Below are positions 17,955 through 30,974 of a DNA stretch of 64,000 bases, in pieces (position 1 is the stretch's first letter; each line of letters begins with the position of its first letter). The notes under the pieces are model-generated. The model saw nothing but the letters and a program-made list of their open reading frames with translations, did not search any database and was not told the DNA's origin. The position numbers and the translations under genes are program-made. The DNA is taken from assembly GCA_029262055.1 (NCBI GenBank), contig JAJDAD010000019.1:1-64000 (forward strand), given 5' to 3'. This DNA comes from Candidatus Zhuqueibacterota bacterium (GTDB taxonomy: Bacteria > Zhuqueibacterota > Zhuqueibacteria > Oceanimicrobiales > Oceanimicrobiaceae).

Positions 17955-20330
17955 ATGGCCCTGAAGAAATCCGAACTCTACAGCTCCATCTGGCAAAGCT
18001 GTGACGAGCTGCGCGGCGGCATGGATGCCAGCCAGTACAAGGATTACGTCCTGGTGCTGCTGTTCATCAAGTACATCAGCGATAAGTATGCCGGCCAGCA
18101 CTACGCGGCGATTACGATCCCGTCTGGCGCCAGTTTCAAGGACATGGTCGCGCTCAAAGGCAATAGCGAAATCGGCGACAAGATCAACAAGGAGATCATT
18201 GCCCCGCTGGCCAAAGCCAACAAGCTTTCTTCCTTCCCGGACTTCATGGATGCCACCAAGCTCGGCAGCGGCAAGGAGATGGTGGACCGGCTCACCAACC
18301 TGATCGCCATCTTCGAGAACCCGGCCCTCGATTTCTCAAAGAACCGCGCCGAAGGCGATGACATCCTCGGCGACGCCTACGAATATCTGATGCGGCATTT
18401 CGCCACCCAGAGTGGCAAGAGCAAGGGCCAGTTTTACACGCCCGCTGAAGTCAGCCGCATCATCGCGCAGATCAGCGGCATCCGCGACGCGAAGACCAGT
18501 GCTGCCACCACCGTCTACGATCCCACCTGCGGCTCCGGTTCACTGCTTTTGAAGGTGGCCGACGAGGCCGGCGCCGCCGTCACGCTCTACGGGCAGGAAA
18601 AGGACTCCGCCACCAGCGGCCTGGCGCGGATGAACATGATCCTGCACGACAACCCGACCGCACTGATCGTGCAGGGCAACACGCTGACCGATCCCAGTTT
18701 CAAAGCGGCCGAAACGCTCAAGACTTTTGACTACGTGGTCGCCAATCCGCCCTTTTCCGATAAGCGCTGGAGCACCGGTCTCGACCCGCTGAACGACCCC
18801 TTCGAGCGCTTCAAGCCGTTTGGCACACCGCCCGGTAAGCAGGGTGACTATGCCTACTTGCTGCACATCGTGCGCTCGCTCAAGAGCACCGGCAAGGGTG
18901 CCTGCATCCTGCCGCACGGCGTGCTCTTCCGTGGCAACGCCGAGGCTGACATCCGCCGCGCCCTGGTGCGCAAGGGCTACATCAAGGGCATCATCGGCCT
19001 GCCCGCCAACCTGTTCTTCGGCACCGGCATCCCCGCCTGTATCGTGGTCATCGACAAGGCGGAGGCCCAGGTCCGCAAGGGCATCTTCATGGTCGATGCC
19101 AGCGCCGGCTTCATGAAGGACGGCCCGAAGAACCGTTTGCGGGACATGGATATCCACAGGATCGTGGACGTCTTCAACAAGGGGCTCGAGGCGCCGAAAT
19201 ACGCGCGCATGGTGCCCTTAGCGGAGATCGAAAAGAACGAATTCAACCTTAACCTGCCGCGCTACATCGACAGCCAGACGCCCGAGGACCTGCAGGATAT
19301 CGCGGGCCATTTGCAGGGCGGCATCCCGGCCGCCGATGTTGATGCGCTGCAGCGCTACTGGGAGGTCTGCCCGCAACTGCGGCACAGCCTGTTTGAGGAA
19401 AACCGGCCCGGCTACTACAATCTCGCCGTGGAGAAGTCGGCTATCAAGTCCGCCATTTACGAGCACCCCGAGTTCGCCGCCTTCATTGCCGGCATGAATG
19501 ACCATTTTGCCGCATGGCGGCAAGAGAGCAGCGCAATGCTCAAGGCTTTGCAGGCGGGCTGCCATCCCAAGGAAATCATCGTGGCGCTGGCCGAGGGCCT
19601 GCTCGCCCACTACGCCGGCAAGCCGCTGATCGACGCCTACGATGTCTACCAACACCTGATGGACTACTGGGCCGAAACTATGCAGGACGACTGCTACCTG
19701 ATCGCCGCCGACGGCTGGCAGGCCGAGACCAGCCGTATCATTGAGAAGGACAAGAAGGGCAAGAAGAAGGACAAGGGCTGGACCTGCGACCTCATCCCCA
19801 AGGCTCTGGTCGTCGCCCGCACCTTCAGCAGGGAGCAGGCGGCCATCGGCCAGCTCGCGGCCGAGATGGAGGAAGAACACGGGGGCGAGGACGGGGCATT
19901 CGCCGAACTCGACAAGGTGAACAAGGCTGCAGTTGTTGCGCGACTGAAGGAGTTGAGAGTTGAGAACGGCGAGTTGGTAGTGGAAGAAAGGAGTGCGCTG
20001 GAGGAATGGTTGAAGCGCAACAATGAGCAAACCGACCTCAAGAAGCGTCTCAAACAGGCGGAAGCCGCGCTCAACGCCCAGGCCTACGCCCGGTATCCGA
20101 AGCTCACCGAGCCCGAGATCAAGACGCTGGTGGTGGACGACAAGTGGCTCGCCACGCTCGATGCCGCCATCCACGGTGAGATGGACCGCGTGAGCCAGCA
20201 GCTCACCCAGCGCGTGAAGGAGTTGGCCGAGCGTTATGAGACGCCGCTGCCGCAGATGGCCAGCTGCGTGACCGAGTTGGAGGCGAAAGTGAACGGGCAC
20301 CTGGAGATGATGGGTTTCTCATGGAAGTGA
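17955..20330 (+). CDS. hsdM: Type I restriction-modification system, DNA methyltransferase subunit (long form)
   Basis: This is the modification subunit, an N6-adenine methyltransferase. It has the N-terminal HsdM helical domain, then a SAM-binding motif DPTCGSG at 189-195 and the catalytic NPPF at 264-267. It is 791 residues long, clearly longer than the usual 500-550. The extra C-terminal 300 residues are charged and partly coiled-coil. It acts with HsdS to methylate the recognition sequence and joins HsdR for cleavage. Its last 10 bases overlap hsdS, so the two are translationally coupled. The region is visibly richer in G+C than the flanking genes, which suggests horizontal acquisition. 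Confidence 0.94.
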   Translation: MALKKSELYSSIWQSCDELRGGMDASQYKDYVLVLLFIKYISDKYAGQHYAAITIPSGASFKDMVALKGNSEIGDKINKEIIAPLAKANKLSSFPDFMDATKLGSGKEMVDRLTNLIAIFENPALDFSKNRAEGDDILGDAYEYLMRHFATQSGKSKGQFYTPAEVSRIIAQISGIRDAKTSAATTVYDPTCGSGSLLLKVADEAGAAVTLYGQEKDSATSGLARMNMILHDNPTALIVQGNTLTDPSFKAAETLKTFDYVVANPPFSDKRWSTGLDPLNDPFERFKPFGTPPGKQGDYAYLLHIVRSLKSTGKGACILPHGVLFRGNAEADIRRALVRKGYIKGIIGLPANLFFGTGIPACIVVIDKAEAQVRKGIFMVDASAGFMKDGPKNRLRDMDIHRIVDVFNKGLEAPKYARMVPLAEIEKNEFNLNLPRYIDSQTPEDLQDIAGHLQGGIPAADVDALQRYWEVCPQLRHSLFEENRPGYYNLAVEKSAIKSAIYEHPEFAAFIAGMNDHFAAWRQESSAMLKALQAGCHPKEIIVALAEGLLAHYAGKPLIDAYDVYQHLMDYWAETMQDDCYLIAADGWQAETSRIIEKDKKGKKKDKGWTCDLIPKALVVARTFSREQAAIGQLAAEMEEEHGGEDGAFAELDKVNKAAVVARLKELRVENGELVVEERSALEEWLKRNNEQTDLKKRLKQAEAALNAQAYARYPKLTEPEIKTLVVDDKWLATLDAAIHGEMDRVSQQLTQRVKELAERYETPLPQMASCVTELEAKVNGHLEMMGFSWK

Positions 20331-21553
20331 AACTGGGCTACAGGCAGACGGAGGTGGGAGTGATTCCGGAAGATTGGAAGCCAACGACGATTGGCGATCT
20401 CGCCAGCAAGGTTGGAAGCGGTGTCACGCCAAGAGGAGGCAGCAACAACTACAGTGAATACGGACGCCCATTCATCCGGAGCCAGAACGTCGGCTGGGGA
20501 ACACTGCTGCTCAACGATCTGGTTTACATCGACGATGACACACACAGTGGTTTTTCCGCCACAGAGCTAAGGCAGAATGATGTCCTCTTGAATATCACCG
20601 GCGCCTCAATCGGTCGGAGTGCAATCGCGGATGCACGTTTGGCGGGTGGCAATGTGAATCAGCACGTCTGCATTATCAGAACCGATGCACGTGAGGTCAC
20701 GTCTCGCTTCATCAATTACTTCTTGCTTTCGGGTTTGGGCCAGCAACAGATCGATAGCTTTCAGGCCGGTGGCAATCGCGAAGGGCTCAACTTTGGTCAG
20801 ATTCGTTCTATCAAACTTCCCCTCCCACCCACCAAGGCCGAACAAGAAGCCATCGCCGAGGCGTTGAGCGATGCGGATGCCCACATCGAATCCCTGGAGC
20901 AACTCATTGCCAAGAGGCGCCAGCTCAAACAAGGCGCCATGCAGGAGTTGCTCACCGGCAAGAAGCGCCTGCCGGGGTTCAACGGGGAGTGGGAAGTGAA
21001 GCGGTTGGGGGAGGTCGCCCACCCGCGCAAGGAGCGAATCGACCCGAGGCGAGCAGGATCTCAGGAGTTCTGCATCGAGTTAGAACATTTCGAACAAGGA
21101 ACGGGGTGCCTTGTCGGCTACACTGCGACATCAGAAGGTTCCTCTCTCAAATCCGTGTTTCAAGAAGATGATGTTCTGTTCGGAAAGCTCCGCGCCTACC
21201 TTCGGAAATATTGGCTCGCAAGCCGCCAAGGCGTCTGCTCGACAGAGATTTGGGTGTTGGTGGCGAAGCACTCTCTACTCATCCCGCAGTATTTGTTCCA
21301 GCTCGTGAAGGTTGATCGCTTCATTGAAACGGCCAGCTCAGCCTATGGCACACACATGCCTCGTTCCGACTGGAATGTCGTAAAGAACTACGAAGTAAGG
21401 CTGCCCACGCTACCCGAACAAGAAGCCATCGCCACCATCCTCACCGACATGGATGCGGCAATCGCCGCGCTGGAGGCCAAGCTCGCCAAAGCCCGCCAAC
21501 TCAAGCAGGGCATGATGCAGGAATTGCTAACCGGGAGGATTCGGCTGGTATGA
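20321..21553 (+). CDS. hsdS: Type I restriction-modification system, specificity subunit
   Basis: This 410-residue protein sets the DNA sequence recognised by the methyltransferase and the restriction complex. It has the usual two-fold layout: a target-recognition domain (about residues 15-165), a conserved coiled-coil spacer, a second target-recognition domain (about 225-370) and a second spacer. The spacers are near copies, both ending in a RQLKQG-MQELLTG-type stretch. The start codon overlaps the end of hsdM by 10 bases, and the end overlaps the next gene by 4 bases. The recognition sequence cannot be predicted by eye, but should be bipartite. Confidence 0.93.
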   Translation: MEVKLGYRQTEVGVIPEDWKPTTIGDLASKVGSGVTPRGGSNNYSEYGRPFIRSQNVGWGTLLLNDLVYIDDDTHSGFSATELRQNDVLLNITGASIGRSAIADARLAGGNVNQHVCIIRTDAREVTSRFINYFLLSGLGQQQIDSFQAGGNREGLNFGQIRSIKLPLPPTKAEQEAIAEALSDADAHIESLEQLIAKRRQLKQGAMQELLTGKKRLPGFNGEWEVKRLGEVAHPRKERIDPRRAGSQEFCIELEHFEQGTGCLVGYTATSEGSSLKSVFQEDDVLFGKLRAYLRKYWLASRQGVCSTEIWVLVAKHSLLIPQYLFQLVKVDRFIETASSAYGTHMPRSDWNVVKNYEVRLPTLPEQEAIATILTDMDAAIAALEAKLAKARQLKQGMMQELLTGRIRLV

Positions 21554-22935
21554 AGGAAAGCCAGAACACCGAATGGAAAGAGAGCTGGCGCGACGAGTAT
21601 TTGCGCTGGATCTGCGGTTTTGCCAACGCCGAGGGCGGTGTGCTGGTTATCGGGCGCAACGACAAGGGCATGGTCCGCGGATTGTCCCGGGCCGCAAAGC
21701 TGCTGGTGGACATTCCGAACAAAGTACGGGACATCCTGGGGATTGTGGTGGAGGTCAACCTTCGTGAGCAGGCCGGGAAGGAGTATCTGGAAATCGTGGT
21801 GGAGCCCTACCCGTATCCGGTCAGCTACAAGGGCGAATATCACTATCGCAGCGGCAGCACAAACCAGACGCTCAAGGGCGCCGCGCTGCAGCGGTTCCTC
21901 CTGGGCAAACAGGGGCTTCATTGGGACGGTGTTCCGGCGCCGGGGCTGCAGTTGGCGGCCTGCGGCAAGGAGGCATTCGAGATCTTCAGGCGAAATGCCG
22001 CGCGAAGCGGGCGCGTGGATGAGGCCGCCCTGCAGGAGCGGGATGAAGTGTTGCTGGAACATCTTCAACTTGTGGAAGGAGACTATCTTAAACGGCCTAC
22101 GGCTTTGCTCTTCGCCAAGGAGCCCGAGAAGTTCGTCAGCGGTGCGTACACTAAGATCGGCTTCTTCAGGACGGATGATGATCTTCTCTACCAGGACGAA
22201 ATCCACGGCAGCCTGTTTGTGCAGGTCGAGAACATCCTGGAGCTTCTCCGGACCAAGTACCTCAAGGCGTACATCCGCTATGAGGGCATTCAACGGATTG
22301 AGGAATACCTCTTTCCGATTCCCGCCTTGCGCGAGGCGATCCTCAATGCATTGGTTCACAAGGACTACGCCAGCGCCATACCCATCCAGATCAGCGTCTA
22401 TGAGCACCAGATCGTGATTTGGAGTCCGGGACACTTGCCCGATGATTGGACCATGGAGAAGCTGCTGGGCAAGCATCCGTCCCGGCCATTCAATCCACTT
22501 GTCGCCAACGCATTTTTCCGTGCGGGCTACGTTGAGGCCTGGGGGCGTGGTATTGAGAAGATTCAGCGCGAATGCCGGGAGTATGACATACCGCCACCCG
22601 ATTTTGATCCCGACTTGGCGGGGTTGATGTTAACCTTCCACGCCAATCCCAGCCGCCTGACGGAGGTGCTGGGCGATGGAAGCCGGTTGGATGAAAAGTG
22701 GGGTGAAAAGTGGGGTGACAAATGGGGTGAAAAGTGGGGCGAGACGATGGCGGCGAAACGACTCAGGATCGCCCGGGCCATGCTGCGCAATCCCCGCGTT
22801 TCCACCCCGCAACTCGCCGCTGAACTCGGCATGGGAATAACGGGAATCGAGAATCACCTGAAGGTCATGCGCGAAAGCGGCTGCATCAGACGCGTCGGTC
22901 CGCCCAGGGGCGGTCATTGGGAGATCCTGCCGTGA
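21550..22935 (+). CDS. AlbA_2/Schlafen-like ATP-binding regulator inside the restriction operon
   Basis: This 461-residue protein has an N-terminal AlbA_2 (Schlafen AAA_4-like) domain. It begins TEWKESWRDEYLRWICGFAN and runs on to EGGVLVIG, the hallmark of this family. The middle resembles the RecG-like/HATPase_c_4 region, with ALREAILNALVHKDY and SPGHLP. Near the C-terminus an EKWG repeat links to a winged-helix domain (about 400-460). Proteins of this type are annotated as transcriptional regulators or predicted helicase-like ATP-binding proteins and occur often in defence loci. The start overlaps hsdS by 4 bases (ATGA) and the end overlaps hsdR (GTGA). It may regulate the system or add its own defence function; which one is unknown. 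Confidence 0.82.
   Translation: MKESQNTEWKESWRDEYLRWICGFANAEGGVLVIGRNDKGMVRGLSRAAKLLVDIPNKVRDILGIVVEVNLREQAGKEYLEIVVEPYPYPVSYKGEYHYRSGSTNQTLKGAALQRFLLGKQGLHWDGVPAPGLQLAACGKEAFEIFRRNAARSGRVDEAALQERDEVLLEHLQLVEGDYLKRPTALLFAKEPEKFVSGAYTKIGFFRTDDDLLYQDEIHGSLFVQVENILELLRTKYLKAYIRYEGIQRIEEYLFPIPALREAILNALVHKDYASAIPIQISVYEHQIVIWSPGHLPDDWTMEKLLGKHPSRPFNPLVANAFFRAGYVEAWGRGIEKIQRECREYDIPPPDFDPDLAGLMLTFHANPSRLTEVLGDGSRLDEKWGEKWGDKWGEKWGETMAAKRLRIARAMLRNPRVSTPQLAAELGMGITGIENHLKVMRESGCIRRVGPPRGGHWEILP
22693..22740 (+). repeat. Four in-frame 12-base repeats encoding EKWG units
   Basis: Four adjoining 12-base units, close to GAAAAGTGGGGT, encode EKWG, EKWG, DKWG and EKWG at 22693-22740. They lie in the linker between the ATP-binding part and the winged helix of the AlbA_2 protein. 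Unit length is a multiple of three, so copy-number change would alter linker length without a frameshift. Confidence 0.85.
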
Positions 22936-25900
22936 GCACCATCGGCCAACCCGAACGCGCGACGCAGAACCGTGTCATCGCCCTGTTTCGCACCGAGCTA
23001 GACTACAGCTACCTCGGCGACTGGACTGACCGGGAGGGCAACAGCAACATCGAGGAGGGTCTGCTCTCGACCTGGCTGGCCAAGCATGGCACCACGCCGA
23101 CGCAAATCAGCGTTGCCCTGCACAGGCTGCGCACCGAGGCGGACAACCACAGCCGCACGCTCTACGGCAACAACCAGGCTGTCTACAACCTGCTGCGCTA
23201 CGGCGTGCCCGTGAAGATCGAGGCGGGCAAGGTGACGGAAACCGTGCACCTGATCAACTGGCAGGAGCCGGACCGGAACGACTTCGCCATCGCCGAAGAA
23301 GTGACGCTCAAGGGCAACCATGAGCGGCGGCCCGATGTCGTGCTGTATGTTAACGGCATCGCCATCGCCGTGCTGGAGTTGAAGAACAGCCGGGTGAGCA
23401 TCGGTCACGGCATCCGCCAGAGCCTCTCCAACCAGCAGCATGAATTCAACGAATGGTTCTTCAGCACCGTGCAGTTCATCTTCGCCGGTAACGACTCAGA
23501 AGGCCTACGATACGGCGCAATCAAAACGGAGGAGAAGTACTTCCTGAAGTGGAAGGAAGATGAGCAGGACGACAGTCGCTCTAAGCTTGACAAGTACCTG
23601 CTCAAGATGTGCGAGAAGCGCCGGCTGATCGAACTGATGCACGACTTCGTGCTGTTCGACGGCGGCGTGAAGAAACTGCCGCGCGCACACCAGTATTTCG
23701 GCGTCAAGGCCGCGCAGACGCATGCGCGCGTGAGGAAGGGCGGCATCATCTGGCACACGCAGGGGAGCGGCAAGAGCATCGTCATGGTGCTGCTCGCGAA
23801 ATGGATCCTGGAGAACAATCCCAACGCCCGCGTCGCCATCATCACGGACCGCGACGAGCTGGACAAACAGATCGAGCGGGTCTTCACCGAGGCGGGCGAA
23901 GCCATCAGGCGCACCAGCAGCGGCCGCGACCTGATGAGCCAGCTCGGCCAGGCCAAGCCGCGCCTGCTGTGCTCGTTGGTGCACAAGTTCGGGCGCAAGG
24001 ACGTGGACGACTTTGACGCCTACATCAAGGAGTTGGAAGCCCAACCCAGTCCGACCATGGGGGAGGTCTTCGTGTTCGTGGACGAATGCCACCGTACGCA
24101 AAGCGGCAAGCTGCACCGGGTGATGAAGGCCATGATGCCCAACGCGGTATTCATCGGCTTCACCGGCACGCCTTTGCTCGCCAAAGACAAGGCGACCAGC
24201 CTGGAGGTCTTCGGCGGCTACATCCACACCTACAAGTTCAGCGAGGGCGTCGAGGATGACGTGGTGCTCGATCTCGTTTATGAGGCGCGCGACATCGATC
24301 AGCGCCTTGGCTCCGAGGACAAGATCGACGCCTGGTTCGAGGCCAAGACCAGGGGGCTGAACGACTGGCAAAAGGACGAGCTGAAGAATCAGTGGGGCAC
24401 GATGCAGAACGTGCTCAGCTCCCGCTCGCGCATGGACCGGGTGGTGAGTGATATCGTCTTTGACTTCAGCGTGAAGCCGCGCCTTTCCAGCGAACGGGGC
24501 AACGCAATCCTGGTGGCGTCTAGCATCTACGAAGCGTGCAAGTATTTCATCCTGTTTCAGAAGACCCCGTTCAAGGGCAAGTGCGCTGTGGTGACCTCCC
24601 ACAACCCGCTGGCCCGGGACGTAACGCTGGAGGAAACCGGCGCCAACACCGAGACCGACAAGCAGTTCATCTACAACACCTACAGCGAGCTGCTGAAGGA
24701 GATCGATGGCAAGCCGGGCATGACTAAAACGGAGGCCTTCGAGGAGCAGGCCAAAGCGCTGTTCACCAGGGAGCCGGCGAATATGAAGCTGCTGGTCGTG
24801 GTAGACAAGCTGCTCACCGGCTTCGACGCGCCGCCCTGCACCTATCTCTACATCGACAAGTCCATGCAGGACCATGGCCTGTTCCAGGCTATCTGCCGAG
24901 TCAACCGCTTGGACGGCGAGGACAAGGATTTCGGCTATATCGTGGACTACAAAGACCTGTTCCCGAAGGTCGAGAATGCCATCGCCGTCTACACCTCGGA
25001 GCTCGATCACAGCGCCGGCGGGGTTGAGCCGGAGGTGCTGCTGCAGGACCGCCTGAAGAAAGGCAAGGAACGGCTCGACAACGCGCTTGAAGCCCTCGCC
25101 CTGCTCTGTGAACCGGTCGAACCGCCAAAAGATGAGCTGGAGCATATCCACTACTTCTGCGGCAACACGGAGATTCGAGAGGATCTGCAGGAGCGGAAGC
25201 CGCAGCGGGTTGCGCTCTACAAGGCGGCCGTGGTCCTGGTGCGCGCCTACGCCAACATTGCCGATGAACTGGAGCCCGCCGGATATGGTGGCGTCGACAT
25301 CAGGCGCATTAAGCAACAGCTCAAGCACTACCTGAACCTGCGAGAGATCATCCGCAAGGCCAGCGGCGAGACGCTCGACCTCAAACCTTACGAGGCCGAC
25401 ATGCGGCACCTGATCGACACCTACATCGAAGCGGATGAGCCGAGGAAGATCTCGCCCTTCGATAATATGGGCCTGCTGGAGCTGGTCGTAAAGACCGGCA
25501 TCGCCAATGCCATTGCGTCGCAGCTCGGCGGCTTGAAGGGCAACAGGAATGCCATCGCTGAGGCTATTGAGAACAACGTGCGCCGCAAGATCATCAAAGA
25601 GCACCTGAACGACCCGGCCTACTACGAAAAGATGTCGGCCCTGCTGGACGAGATCATCGCGGCACGGAAGGCCAAGGCCATCGAGTTCGAGGAATACCTG
25701 AAGCGCATCGCGACTCTGGCGCAGAGTGTCGAGGCAGGGATGGCTGAGGATACGCCCGAGCGGTTGAAGGACAGTCCGGCCCTTCGGGCAGTCTACAACA
25801 ATCTGAAAAGGGATAGGCCGACGCCTGCGCGAGCGGGCCGCGTAGCCGATGACCGAGGCGAATACGCGACCGCCGGCGACCCGGTCTTGGAAGTGGCGGT

Positions 25901-26057
25901 GAAGATAGACGCGACGGTGAAAAAGGTACGACCGGACGGTTGGCGCGGGGTGCAAGCTCGCGAACAAGTGATCAAAGCGGCCTTGTATGAGATTCTGCAA
26001 GATGAGACCGAAGTGGAGCGGATTTTCTTGATCATTAAGGCGCGAGGTGAGTACTAG
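22932..26057 (+). CDS. hsdR: Type I restriction-modification system, restriction (translocase/endonuclease) subunit
   Basis: This 1041-residue protein pumps and cleaves unmodified DNA. The N-terminal PD-(D/E)xK nuclease core shows PD at 134-135 and E149-L-K151 in VLELKNS. It is followed by a superfamily 2 helicase core with the Walker A motif HTQGSGKS, the DECHR box and a downstream motif VDKLLTGFDAP. A C-terminal helical region contacts the methyltransferase. GTG at 22932 overlaps the stop of the preceding gene as GTGA; an in-frame TTG five codons upstream is less likely. The stop overlaps the next start by one base. The chain looks complete, so the system is probably active. Confidence 0.94.
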   Translation: MSTIGQPERATQNRVIALFRTELDYSYLGDWTDREGNSNIEEGLLSTWLAKHGTTPTQISVALHRLRTEADNHSRTLYGNNQAVYNLLRYGVPVKIEAGKVTETVHLINWQEPDRNDFAIAEEVTLKGNHERRPDVVLYVNGIAIAVLELKNSRVSIGHGIRQSLSNQQHEFNEWFFSTVQFIFAGNDSEGLRYGAIKTEEKYFLKWKEDEQDDSRSKLDKYLLKMCEKRRLIELMHDFVLFDGGVKKLPRAHQYFGVKAAQTHARVRKGGIIWHTQGSGKSIVMVLLAKWILENNPNARVAIITDRDELDKQIERVFTEAGEAIRRTSSGRDLMSQLGQAKPRLLCSLVHKFGRKDVDDFDAYIKELEAQPSPTMGEVFVFVDECHRTQSGKLHRVMKAMMPNAVFIGFTGTPLLAKDKATSLEVFGGYIHTYKFSEGVEDDVVLDLVYEARDIDQRLGSEDKIDAWFEAKTRGLNDWQKDELKNQWGTMQNVLSSRSRMDRVVSDIVFDFSVKPRLSSERGNAILVASSIYEACKYFILFQKTPFKGKCAVVTSHNPLARDVTLEETGANTETDKQFIYNTYSELLKEIDGKPGMTKTEAFEEQAKALFTREPANMKLLVVVDKLLTGFDAPPCTYLYIDKSMQDHGLFQAICRVNRLDGEDKDFGYIVDYKDLFPKVENAIAVYTSELDHSAGGVEPEVLLQDRLKKGKERLDNALEALALLCEPVEPPKDELEHIHYFCGNTEIREDLQERKPQRVALYKAAVVLVRAYANIADELEPAGYGGVDIRRIKQQLKHYLNLREIIRKASGETLDLKPYEADMRHLIDTYIEADEPRKISPFDNMGLLELVVKTGIANAIASQLGGLKGNRNAIAEAIENNVRRKIIKEHLNDPAYYEKMSALLDEIIAARKAKAIEFEEYLKRIATLAQSVEAGMAEDTPERLKDSPALRAVYNNLKRDRPTPARAGRVADDRGEYATAGDPVLEVAVKIDATVKKVRPDGWRGVQAREQVIKAALYEILQDETEVERIFLIIKARGEY

Positions 26058-26773
26058 TGGAGTCGCAAATCAAGCTGGGTGACATCGCGGTGGACGTAGT
26101 CCTGAAGGACATCAAGAATGTTCATCTCAGCGTCTATCCCCCGACAGGTAGGGTGCGCATCTCAGCCCCGAAGCGCATGAGCATGGACACCATTCGCCTG
26201 TTCGCGATCTCCAAGCTTGGCTGGATCAAGCAGCAGAAGAAGAAGCTTCGAGAACAAGAGCGCGAAACCCCTCGCGACTATGTGGACCGGGAAAGCCACT
26301 ACGTGTGGGGCAAGCGCTATTTGCTCACGGTCTCCGAGCTCAATGAGCCAGCCCTCATTGAGCTTAGGCACAGCCGCATGCTTCTGCGTGTCCGTCCTGG
26401 AACAGATGCGCCCAAAAGGCAGGCTCTTGTTGAGCAATGGTATCGCGGGCAGGTCAAGAACGCTGTGCCCCCGTTGTTCGCCCGCTGGCAGCCGCGGATC
26501 GGCGTGAGCGTGGAGCGGTTTTACGTGCGGGCAATGAAGACCAAGTGGGGGAGCTGCAACCACAAGGCGTGCACGATTCGCCTTAACACAGAGCTGGCAA
26601 AGAAGCCTGCGGAGTGCCTCGAGTACATTGTTGTTCACGAACTGGTGCACTTGCTGGAGCCGACCCACAACGCCCGCTTCGTCGCGCTGATGGACCGGTT
26701 CATGCCCAACTGGCAGTTCCAGCGCCAGGTGCTCAATCGCCTGCCGGTTCGACGAGAAAAGTGGAGTTATTAA
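26057..26773 (+). CDS. YgjP/DUF45 (SprT-like) metal-dependent hydrolase linked to the restriction system
   Basis: This 238-residue protein of the YgjP-like DUF45 family carries the zinc-metallopeptidase motif HELVH in VVHELVHLLEP, followed by HNARF, where the third zinc ligand is expected. The upstream KWGSCNHK motif is also typical of the family. The start GTG at 26057 shares one base with the hsdR stop codon, so it is the last gene of the operon. DUF45 proteins are repeatedly found next to type I restriction genes. A role in turnover of the restriction subunit has been suggested by that association only, so the substrate here is inference. Confidence 0.85.
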   Translation: MESQIKLGDIAVDVVLKDIKNVHLSVYPPTGRVRISAPKRMSMDTIRLFAISKLGWIKQQKKKLREQERETPRDYVDRESHYVWGKRYLLTVSELNEPALIELRHSRMLLRVRPGTDAPKRQALVEQWYRGQVKNAVPPLFARWQPRIGVSVERFYVRAMKTKWGSCNHKACTIRLNTELAKKPAECLEYIVVHELVHLLEPTHNARFVALMDRFMPNWQFQRQVLNRLPVRREKWSY

Positions 26774-28955: not shown

Positions 28956-28978
28956 CCACGTACTGAGGACGGCATTTC

Positions 28979-30067
28979 ATGCGAAATGAAACACAGGATC
29001 TAGCAAGGCGTGCGCTCCGGTGGCCCGGGACCAGCTTGCTATTCCTGAGCGCAATATCTCTATTAGCAGGTCCCGCATTCAGTCAAAAGCAAGTTTATGA
29101 CCAAAGACAGGATTACACTGTGGATGCAGAGCTAGGTTTCTCAACCGGCCCGGAAGTAGGCCAGGTAGTTCCAAAGTTTAGCTTACCCGATCAAAATGGC
29201 AAGACCGTGAGTCTGCAGCAGTTGCTCGGTAAGAAGGGCGCGCTGCTTAACTTCTACCGCAGCGCTTCCTGGTGACCTTACTGCAAGAAGGAACTAGTTG
29301 AGTTCCAGAAAAAGCTGAGCGAATTTGAAAACAAGGGAATAGCGATAATCGGAATCAGCTATGACCCGGTTGATGTCCTGAAGACGTTTTCCGACAAACA
29401 CGGCATCACGTATCCTCTCTTATCCGACGTTAAGAGCGAGGTGATAAACAAGTTCGGGATTCTGAATACGACCATCGACGCCAACACCAGATACTCAGGC
29501 ATCCCGCATCCAGGCCTCTACGTCATCGACGAAACTCTGATTGTAAAAAAGAAACAGTTCGAGGAATCGTATGCAGCCAGGCCGAGCGCGGAAAGCGTAC
29601 TGGCTGCTCATTTTGACAAAGATATTAATAAACATGTGCAGAGGTTTCGCACACCGTACCTGGCCGGCAGCATTGCCATCAGTGACTCTCTAACTTACCC
29701 GGCGCAAATTCTCACGCTTGTCGTAAAGCTCTCTCTGCAAGAGGGATTCCACCTGTATGTGACGCCGATACCGGAAGGCTTTACCCCTTTGACAATGGAT
29801 TTGCAGGCGAACCCGAACTTTGCTCTGGATGCGTTACAGATCCCGAATTCGGAACAGGTACGGGTGGAGACTCTTGACGAGACGTTCAATGTCGTTTCAA
29901 ATCAGATCACGTTGAAATCACTCATCAGAGTCAGCAGCACGCCTGACCTGGGCCCGCAGACTCTGACCTTCCAGCTCAAATTCCAGGCGTGCGATGACAA
30001 GGTCTGCATGACGCCGGAGCAATTGAATTTTCAGTTTCCAGTGGCAATACCCAAGGCGATAGACTAA
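28979..30067 (+). CDS. Selenocysteine-containing peroxiredoxin (AhpC/TSA) fused to a DsbD-alpha-like domain
   Basis: Two open segments in the same frame are separated only by a TGA at 29273-29275. Reading that codon as selenocysteine gives one 362-residue protein with Sec at residue 99. The active site reads FYRSASW-Sec-PYCKKEL, a peroxiredoxin/redoxin active site with a Sec-x-x-Cys pair. Cysteine homologues have SADWCPYC-type motifs, so the TGA replaces the peroxidatic Cys. The N-terminus has a signal segment (about 15-36). The redoxin fold runs from about 55 to 210, continuing without a stop through IAIIGISYDP and HPGLYVIDE. The C-terminal 140 residues resemble the DsbD N-terminal (alpha) domain, ending with KFQACDDKVCMTPEQLNF. 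The likely role is a periplasmic thiol peroxidase or reductase. A standard gene caller would split it into two fragments. Confidence 0.85.
29290..29306 (+). promoter_or_regulatory. Bacterial SECIS-like hairpin directing Sec insertion
   Basis: GGAACT (29290-29295) and AGTTCC (29301-29306) form a perfect 6-bp stem around the loop AGTTG. The loop begins 20 bases after the TGA, inside the distance known for bacterial SECIS elements, and its second base is G followed by U, as in the SelB-binding consensus. It lies within the coding sequence, as expected in bacteria. Confidence 0.7.
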
Positions 30068-30407: not shown

Positions 30408-30974
30408 TTAGGCACCATCAGCGCTGTGTACGGACTCATTGATAATGCTCTCGATACTTTGCTTCAGCAGGCCGGAATAATCTTCCAGTGTTGCATGGTA
30501 ACCGATATGCTTAAACCTGAGCCGCCCCTCGGTGTCGATAATCATTAATGTTGGATAATGCTTGATACCCAGTCGGGCAGAGAGAGCGGAATCGGAGTCA
30601 TAAGCCATCGGGAATCTGTATTCCTTCCTCTTGACAAAGTCGCGGACAATCCCGATGGAATCACCCCCCCGACCCACATTTACGGCCAGGAATGCAACCT
30701 TTGAATTGTCCTGGTAGGAATCGACGACCTTTTGAAATTCCGGAAACGCGTTTACACATAAGCCACACCAGGTACCCCAGAAGTCGAGGACCAGGATTTT
30801 GCCTTCATAATCCGATGCTGTAATTGTACCGCCGCTCAAATCCTGGAGTGTGAAGTCGACAAAGTCTTGATTGAGTTGGTCGGTCACCACAAAGTGGTAA
30901 ATTTGTTTCCGGGCCAGCCACAAGCTTGACATCAAAACAAGCGCCGCGCCGACAATGTAAATGGCTCTTTTCAT
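30408..30974 (-). CDS. TlpA/ResA-like thioredoxin-fold protein, membrane anchored
   Basis: This 188-residue protein has an uncleaved N-terminal membrane anchor (about residues 4-22) and a redoxin/TlpA domain facing the periplasm. The active site is WCGLC, with Cys70 and Cys73 within LDFWGTWCGLC. A cis-proline loop HYPTLMIIDTEG follows later. Proteins of this class reduce disulfides, for example in cytochrome c maturation, or act as peroxidases; the partner is unknown. It faces away from the selenoperoxiredoxin and is separated from it by the sorting-domain remnant. Downstream on the minus strand nothing is coupled; the ICMT-like gene ends 45 bases upstream of its start, so the two could be cotranscribed. 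Confidence 0.85.
   Translation of the reverse strand: MKRAIYIVGAALVLMSSLWLARKQIYHFVVTDQLNQDFVDFTLQDLSGGTITASDYEGKILVLDFWGTWCGLCVNAFPEFQKVVDSYQDNSKVAFLAVNVGRGGDSIGIVRDFVKRKEYRFPMAYDSDSALSARLGIKHYPTLMIIDTEGRLRFKHIGYHATLEDYSGLLKQSIESIINESVHSADGA

Follow-up and report, generated by a model that had tools for sequence, protein, structure and literature searches.

A gene in a bacterium of the Candidatus Zhuqueibacterota carries an in-frame TGA that is almost certainly read as selenocysteine (Sec), and the protein it would encode is predicted to be an exported redox selenoprotein with two modules, acting in the cell envelope. Judged from its sequence, the protein is best, and we think probably, explained as a selenol/disulfide reductase of the periplasm, with a fused DsbD-alpha arm that would be fed by DsbD. 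The gene lies in the first 64,000 nucleotides of contig JAJDAD010000019.1 (assembly GCA_029262055.1), a stretch to which we refer as the window. Its features, all on the plus strand, are as follows.

28965..28969, plus strand: Shine-Dalgarno-like GAGGA, 9 nt upstream of the ATG (read from the sequence)
28979..30067, plus strand: complete selenoprotein gene, 362 amino acids (translation with TGA as U; full-length homologues)
28979..29086, plus strand: signal-peptide-like N-terminus, residues 1-36, with a basic start, a hydrophobic stretch and the ending GPAFSQ (read from the sequence)
29156..29551, plus strand: AhpC/TSA (peroxiredoxin-like) domain, residues 60-191 (PF00578, structural superposition)
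29273..29275, plus strand: TGA for selenocysteine 99, first position of the UxxC motif UPYC (TGA or Cys codon in the homologues; Sec machinery in the genome)
29282..29284, plus strand: Cys102, partner Cys of UxxC (invariant, 47/47)
29290..29306, plus strand: bSECIS hairpin GGAACU-AGUUG-AGUUCC (consensus fold, covariation, Sec/Cys contrast)
29510..29512, plus strand: Pro178, the cis-Pro position of thioredoxin/ResA, Arg in peroxiredoxins (Pro in 46/47)
29699..30025, plus strand: DsbD-alpha (DsbD_N, PF11412) domain, residues 241-349 (Pfam, structure match)
29990..30007, plus strand: Cys338 and Cys343 (CX4C) of the DsbD-alpha domain (invariant, 47/47)
30065-30067, plus strand: TAA stop of the gene (translation with TGA as U)

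As the original prediction had it, the reading frame is open from end to end apart from this single TGA, and standard gene calling (table 11) splits the gene into pieces of 98 and 208 amino acids; none of the NCBIfam models matched the window protein at its cut-off. Since a TGA with long open flanks occurs at three places in the six frames of the window, including the genuine end of a gene at 21551, such flanks prove little on their own, and the evidence had to come from comparison. The N-terminus looks like an export signal; its hydrophobic stretch is present in most relatives and missing from some, and residues 1-36 form a low-confidence region of the structure model. Some 340 bases downstream, on the opposite strand (30408-30974, minus), lies a gene for a putative TlpA/ResA-like thioredoxin-fold protein with the motif WCGLC, a possible partner. 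Judged by eye from their translations, the genes at positions 17955-26773 look like a type I restriction-modification cluster (methylase, specificity and restriction subunits), accompanied by one gene that resembles ATP-binding regulators and a small one that resembles metalloproteases.

The first module has a peroxiredoxin-like fold. PF00578 scores 120 bits on the window protein (cut-off 26), and the model of the whole protein (mean pLDDT 90.3) superposes best on the peroxiredoxins BcpB (Z 21.9) and AhpE (Z 21), with ResA among its Foldseek hits. The original prediction had placed the TGA exactly at the peroxidatic position of a peroxiredoxin of the AhpC/TSA type, but the alignment of profiles to PrxQ and AhpE contradicts this assignment: the peroxidatic Cys falls on Cys102, the Ser/Thr of the (T/S)xxC motif on Sec99 and the catalytic Arg on the nearly invariant Pro178, which is aligned with the Arg of PrxQ and with residue 116 of AhpE. 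Peroxiredoxins carry their nucleophile at the second motif position together with an Arg, and thioredoxins and ResA carry it at the first position together with a cis-Pro (PMC2757866). The combination of UxxC and cis-Pro thus points to an active site of the thioredoxin/ResA type, carried by a peroxiredoxin-like fold, and in the arrangement Sec99-Pro-Tyr-Cys102 with its cis-Pro, Sec99 is expected to be the attacking nucleophile and Cys102 the releasing partner. The site is likely to be of the disulfide-reductase type. Because two defining active-site features of peroxiredoxins, the (T/S)xxC nucleophile and the catalytic Arg, are replaced by Sec at the Thr position and Pro at the Arg position, we place the protein outside the peroxiredoxins.

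It is nevertheless conceivable that the enzyme is a true peroxidase fed by DsbD, in which Sec99 attacks H2O2 or alkyl peroxides in the manner of glutathione peroxidase (UxxT) or peroxiredoxin, so that the chemistry alone would differ. In favour of this, the nearest folds are those of BcpB and AhpE, Sec sits at the motif position of the glutathione peroxidase nucleophile (PMC2757866), and a DsbD-type transporter feeds an envelope peroxiredoxin in the Caulobacter ScsB-TlpA-PprX pathway (as cited in PMC5403849). A peroxide is accordingly a serious rival to a disulfide as substrate. As the peroxiredoxin determinants (the Thr of TxxC and the catalytic Arg) are absent and a cis-Pro and a second Cys are found instead, we still regard a peroxidase as rather unlikely.

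By domain and motif, the window protein may be filed as a member of a known family with a new architecture. UxxC proteins constitute a separate selenoprotein family of 'Prx-like thiol:disulfide oxidoreductases', the verified Sec-peroxiredoxin being TxxU (2026 review, PMC13188914), and were on record by the time of the Sargasso Sea study (PMC1088965) at the latest. The window protein has both hallmarks of this family, a PF00578 match above the cut-off and Sec in UxxC. With its published entries (UxxC/UxxU; Table 1 in PMC13188914; Prx-like 1 in PMC2398784) it has in common the AhpC/TSA domain, Sec in a thioredoxin-like UxxC, a SECIS element just downstream and Cys homologues, but these entries, compared by description, name no C-terminal DsbD-alpha domain. 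Sec-peroxiredoxins (PF00578, TxxU) have the Pfam domain and fold in common with it, but their Sec lies three residues further on, at the position of Cys102. Six loci from the wider scans for relatives (L058, L061, L070, L087, L100 and L108) are TxxU peroxiredoxins of the TPGUTKE type, with the true Sec-peroxiredoxin layout. ResA, TlpA and CcmG resemble the window protein in their CxxC-type site, cis-Pro, periplasmic setting and sequence profile, but differ in that the window protein has Sec for the first Cys, a longer loop before it and the fused DsbD-alpha domain.

This second module had escaped the original prediction. PF11412 scores 37.9 bits on the window protein (cut-off 25), and all 47 full-length members scanned match both Pfam domains, PF11412 at E 0.001 or better. 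Modelled alone, the domain reaches a pLDDT of 94.1 and its nine best PDB hits are all DsbD-N or ScsB-N, indicating a DsbD-N fold, complete with the active-site Cys pair; a search of PDB sequences with a profile of the C-terminal domain returned nothing useful. The genome itself encodes one full-length DsbD, comprising an alpha, a membrane and a gamma part; the motif of its alpha part, YQACNDMSC, is similar to the FQACDDKVC of the fused arm. The fold and Cys pair are also those of the N-terminal (alpha) domains of DsbD and ScsB, but here they sit at the C-terminus of a soluble reductase rather than on a membrane transporter, and with CX4C spacing.

A role of this domain as electron donor to the Sec module is in our estimation somewhat favoured. 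Alternatively, it might be a target or docking module, which either receives oxidising equivalents, as in a sensor or oxidase, or just binds DsbD-gamma or the substrate. The sequence does not tell which way the electrons flow, which leaves room for this idea, but known DsbD-alpha domains hand electrons outward to periplasmic partners and the Cys338/Cys343 pair is invariant, so that we consider a target or docking function unlikely, more so than a peroxidase.

For the reductase with its donor arm we infer the following relay and substrate. Sec99 would attack and reduce an oxidised envelope substrate, be it a disulfide, a sulfenic acid or a peroxide, upon which a Se-S bond would form between Sec99 and Cys102. 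The Cys338/Cys343 pair of the fused arm could then re-reduce this bond, and would in turn be recharged by the full-length DsbD of the cell. Wiring of this kind is plausible, since DsbD-type electron supply to an envelope peroxiredoxin is known from Caulobacter; in that peroxide pathway, however, the components are three separate proteins (ScsB, TlpA and PprX), whereas here donor arm and Sec enzyme would be joined in one chain (PMC5403849). The gene neighbours differ among relatives and therefore lend no context or operon support to a substrate or to the DsbD link. Other fused selenoproteins, such as Prx-PP2C, Prx-like 3/Unknown_3 and the TsoB rhodanese/DsbD protein, likewise combine a Sec redox domain with a second domain, often with conserved Cys, but their domain pairs differ from that of the window protein. 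We found no report of a Sec/DsbD-alpha fusion of the present type in the open-access literature searched, selenoprotein surveys included.

That residue 99 is Sec is well supported, because independent lines of evidence agree: the conservation of the TGA, the Cys homologues, the hairpin downstream and the machinery in the genome. The codon for residue 99 is TGA in 61 loci, including the window, and TGC or TGT in eight, and the alignment with Cys homologues that the original prediction had proposed as a check puts Cys exactly at this residue in all eight. Within the phylum of the window, TGA occupies the equivalent codon in six relatives, of which four are full-length (42-51% identical) and two are shorter. 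Further full-length relatives come from records labelled Caldithrix/KSB1, Acidobacteria, Gemmatimonadetes, Gammaproteobacteria, Binataceae and, in one case, Acidimicrobiia, all names being those of the MAG records; the enzyme type is present in at least four bacterial phyla. Of 396 genomes sampled from the phylum to which one Acidobacteria locus belongs, 56 gave a match, and no relative was found among the viral contigs scanned. Homology runs through the TGA, as PF00578 extends across residue 99. The source assembly (5.74 Mb, 97% complete) is a draft of 114 contigs, and a lone TGA in an otherwise open frame may look like a sequencing error or a decayed gene, but this is refuted by the 60 other loci, from several phyla, with TGA at the equivalent codon and a conserved protein downstream. 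A tree built from 62 full-length rows shows the Cys forms at scattered places, and its supported branches force at least six changes. One genome (G217) holds both states, as full-length Sec (TGA, L111) and Cys (TGC, L141) paralogues that form a natural Sec/Cys pair. Two relatives of the same class (L028, L029) carry a UPWC selenoprotein domain, but their N-terminal region is different and they lack the DsbD-alpha domain.

By comparison, decoding of the UGA as Sec is directed by a hairpin just downstream. It has a 6-bp stem and a 5-nt loop, AGUUG, and starts 15 nt after the TGA, with the apical loop 20 nt after it. This fits the published bacterial SECIS model, which requires a stem of 4-16 bp, a loop of 3-9 nt with a G in the first two loop positions, a distance of 16-37 nt from the UGA and a minimum free energy of at most -7.5 kcal/mol (PMC13188914), the energy being borderline at -7.7 kcal/mol in one stretch. 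Folded alone, the downstream RNA of the window gave no signal over shuffles (z near 0), so that the hairpin becomes visible by comparison only. In the alignment, RNAalifold recovers it unprompted; 97% of cells are paired, and three of the seven pairs show two-sided changes that keep the pairing; none of 500 shuffles reached its covariation score. The hairpin is intact in 50 of the 53 full-length Sec genes, compared with one of eight Cys genes (Fisher P 2e-6), a contrast that distinguishes an RNA signal from plain protein conservation. On independent tree pairs, 5.5 out of 6 went in the same direction and none in the opposite one, with P at 0.03-0.06 since the pairs are few. One Cys form (L144) retains a complete 6-bp hairpin and looks like a recent change from Sec to Cys.

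For decoding, the cell relies on its own SelA, SelB, SelD and tRNA-Sec. The original prediction had suggested searching the genome for this machinery, and all four components were found: SelA (549 bits, cut-off 268), SelB (335 bits, cut-off 242), SelD (363 bits, cut-off 125) and a single tRNA-Sec that passes the Rfam cut-off with 67.3 bits and that ARAGORN also calls as tRNA-SeC with anticodon TCA.

L001 1499-1595, contig 78: tRNA-Sec of the genome (Rfam match)

Another candidate for tRNA-Sec, with 48.4 bits on contig 58, was rejected as a tRNA-Ser. The selD gene adjoins selB and has an in-frame TGA of its own, within the motif CAGUASK, so that this genome has at least one selenoprotein gene besides the one in the window. 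Together with the conserved TGA and the Cys homologues, the complete machinery bears out the original prediction of a selenoprotein gene. It also leaves next to nothing of the notion that the TGA is read as another residue through a recoded genetic code or plain read-through: the frame does stay open, but TGA acts as an ordinary stop by closing 12 of the 39 long ORFs in the window, homologues exchange it for Cys alone and never for Trp (69 loci), and both a SECIS hairpin and Sec machinery are present.

Across the phylum of the window, 49 of 82 genomes have a tRNA-Sec that passes the Rfam cut-off, and SelB was above its cut-off in all five genomes checked. A survey of KSB1 reported selA, selB and selD as present and selC as absent (PMC9012183). 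Three genomes of the window's phylum have matches among records that bear the name KSB1 or Caldithrix, and if the two phyla correspond, the reported lack of selC appears to reflect a gap in annotation. Among 20 foreign genomes with a relative, 17 have SelB above the cut-off. One genome (G026, 99% complete; loci L027 and L167) has a TGA gene and a 374-bit SelB, and no tRNA-Sec was found in it or in the 12 kb around selB; a missing piece of the assembly or a divergent tRNA may account for this.

Two redox modules in one chain look like a reductase with a built-in reducing arm, and the fusion offers a concrete, testable solution to the problem of keeping a selenoenzyme reduced outside the cytoplasm, namely through DsbD. 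Tentatively, for the odds seem to us slightly below even, these proteins might represent a widespread but unrecognised class of envelope selenoenzymes that are self-contained, in that the DsbD-alpha arm would pass electrons from DsbD to the Sec of the same chain and thereby join the selenium and DsbD pathways. As annotation cuts their genes in two and no NCBIfam model matches at its cut-off, the class is probably under-counted in the genomes of major soil and marine phyla.
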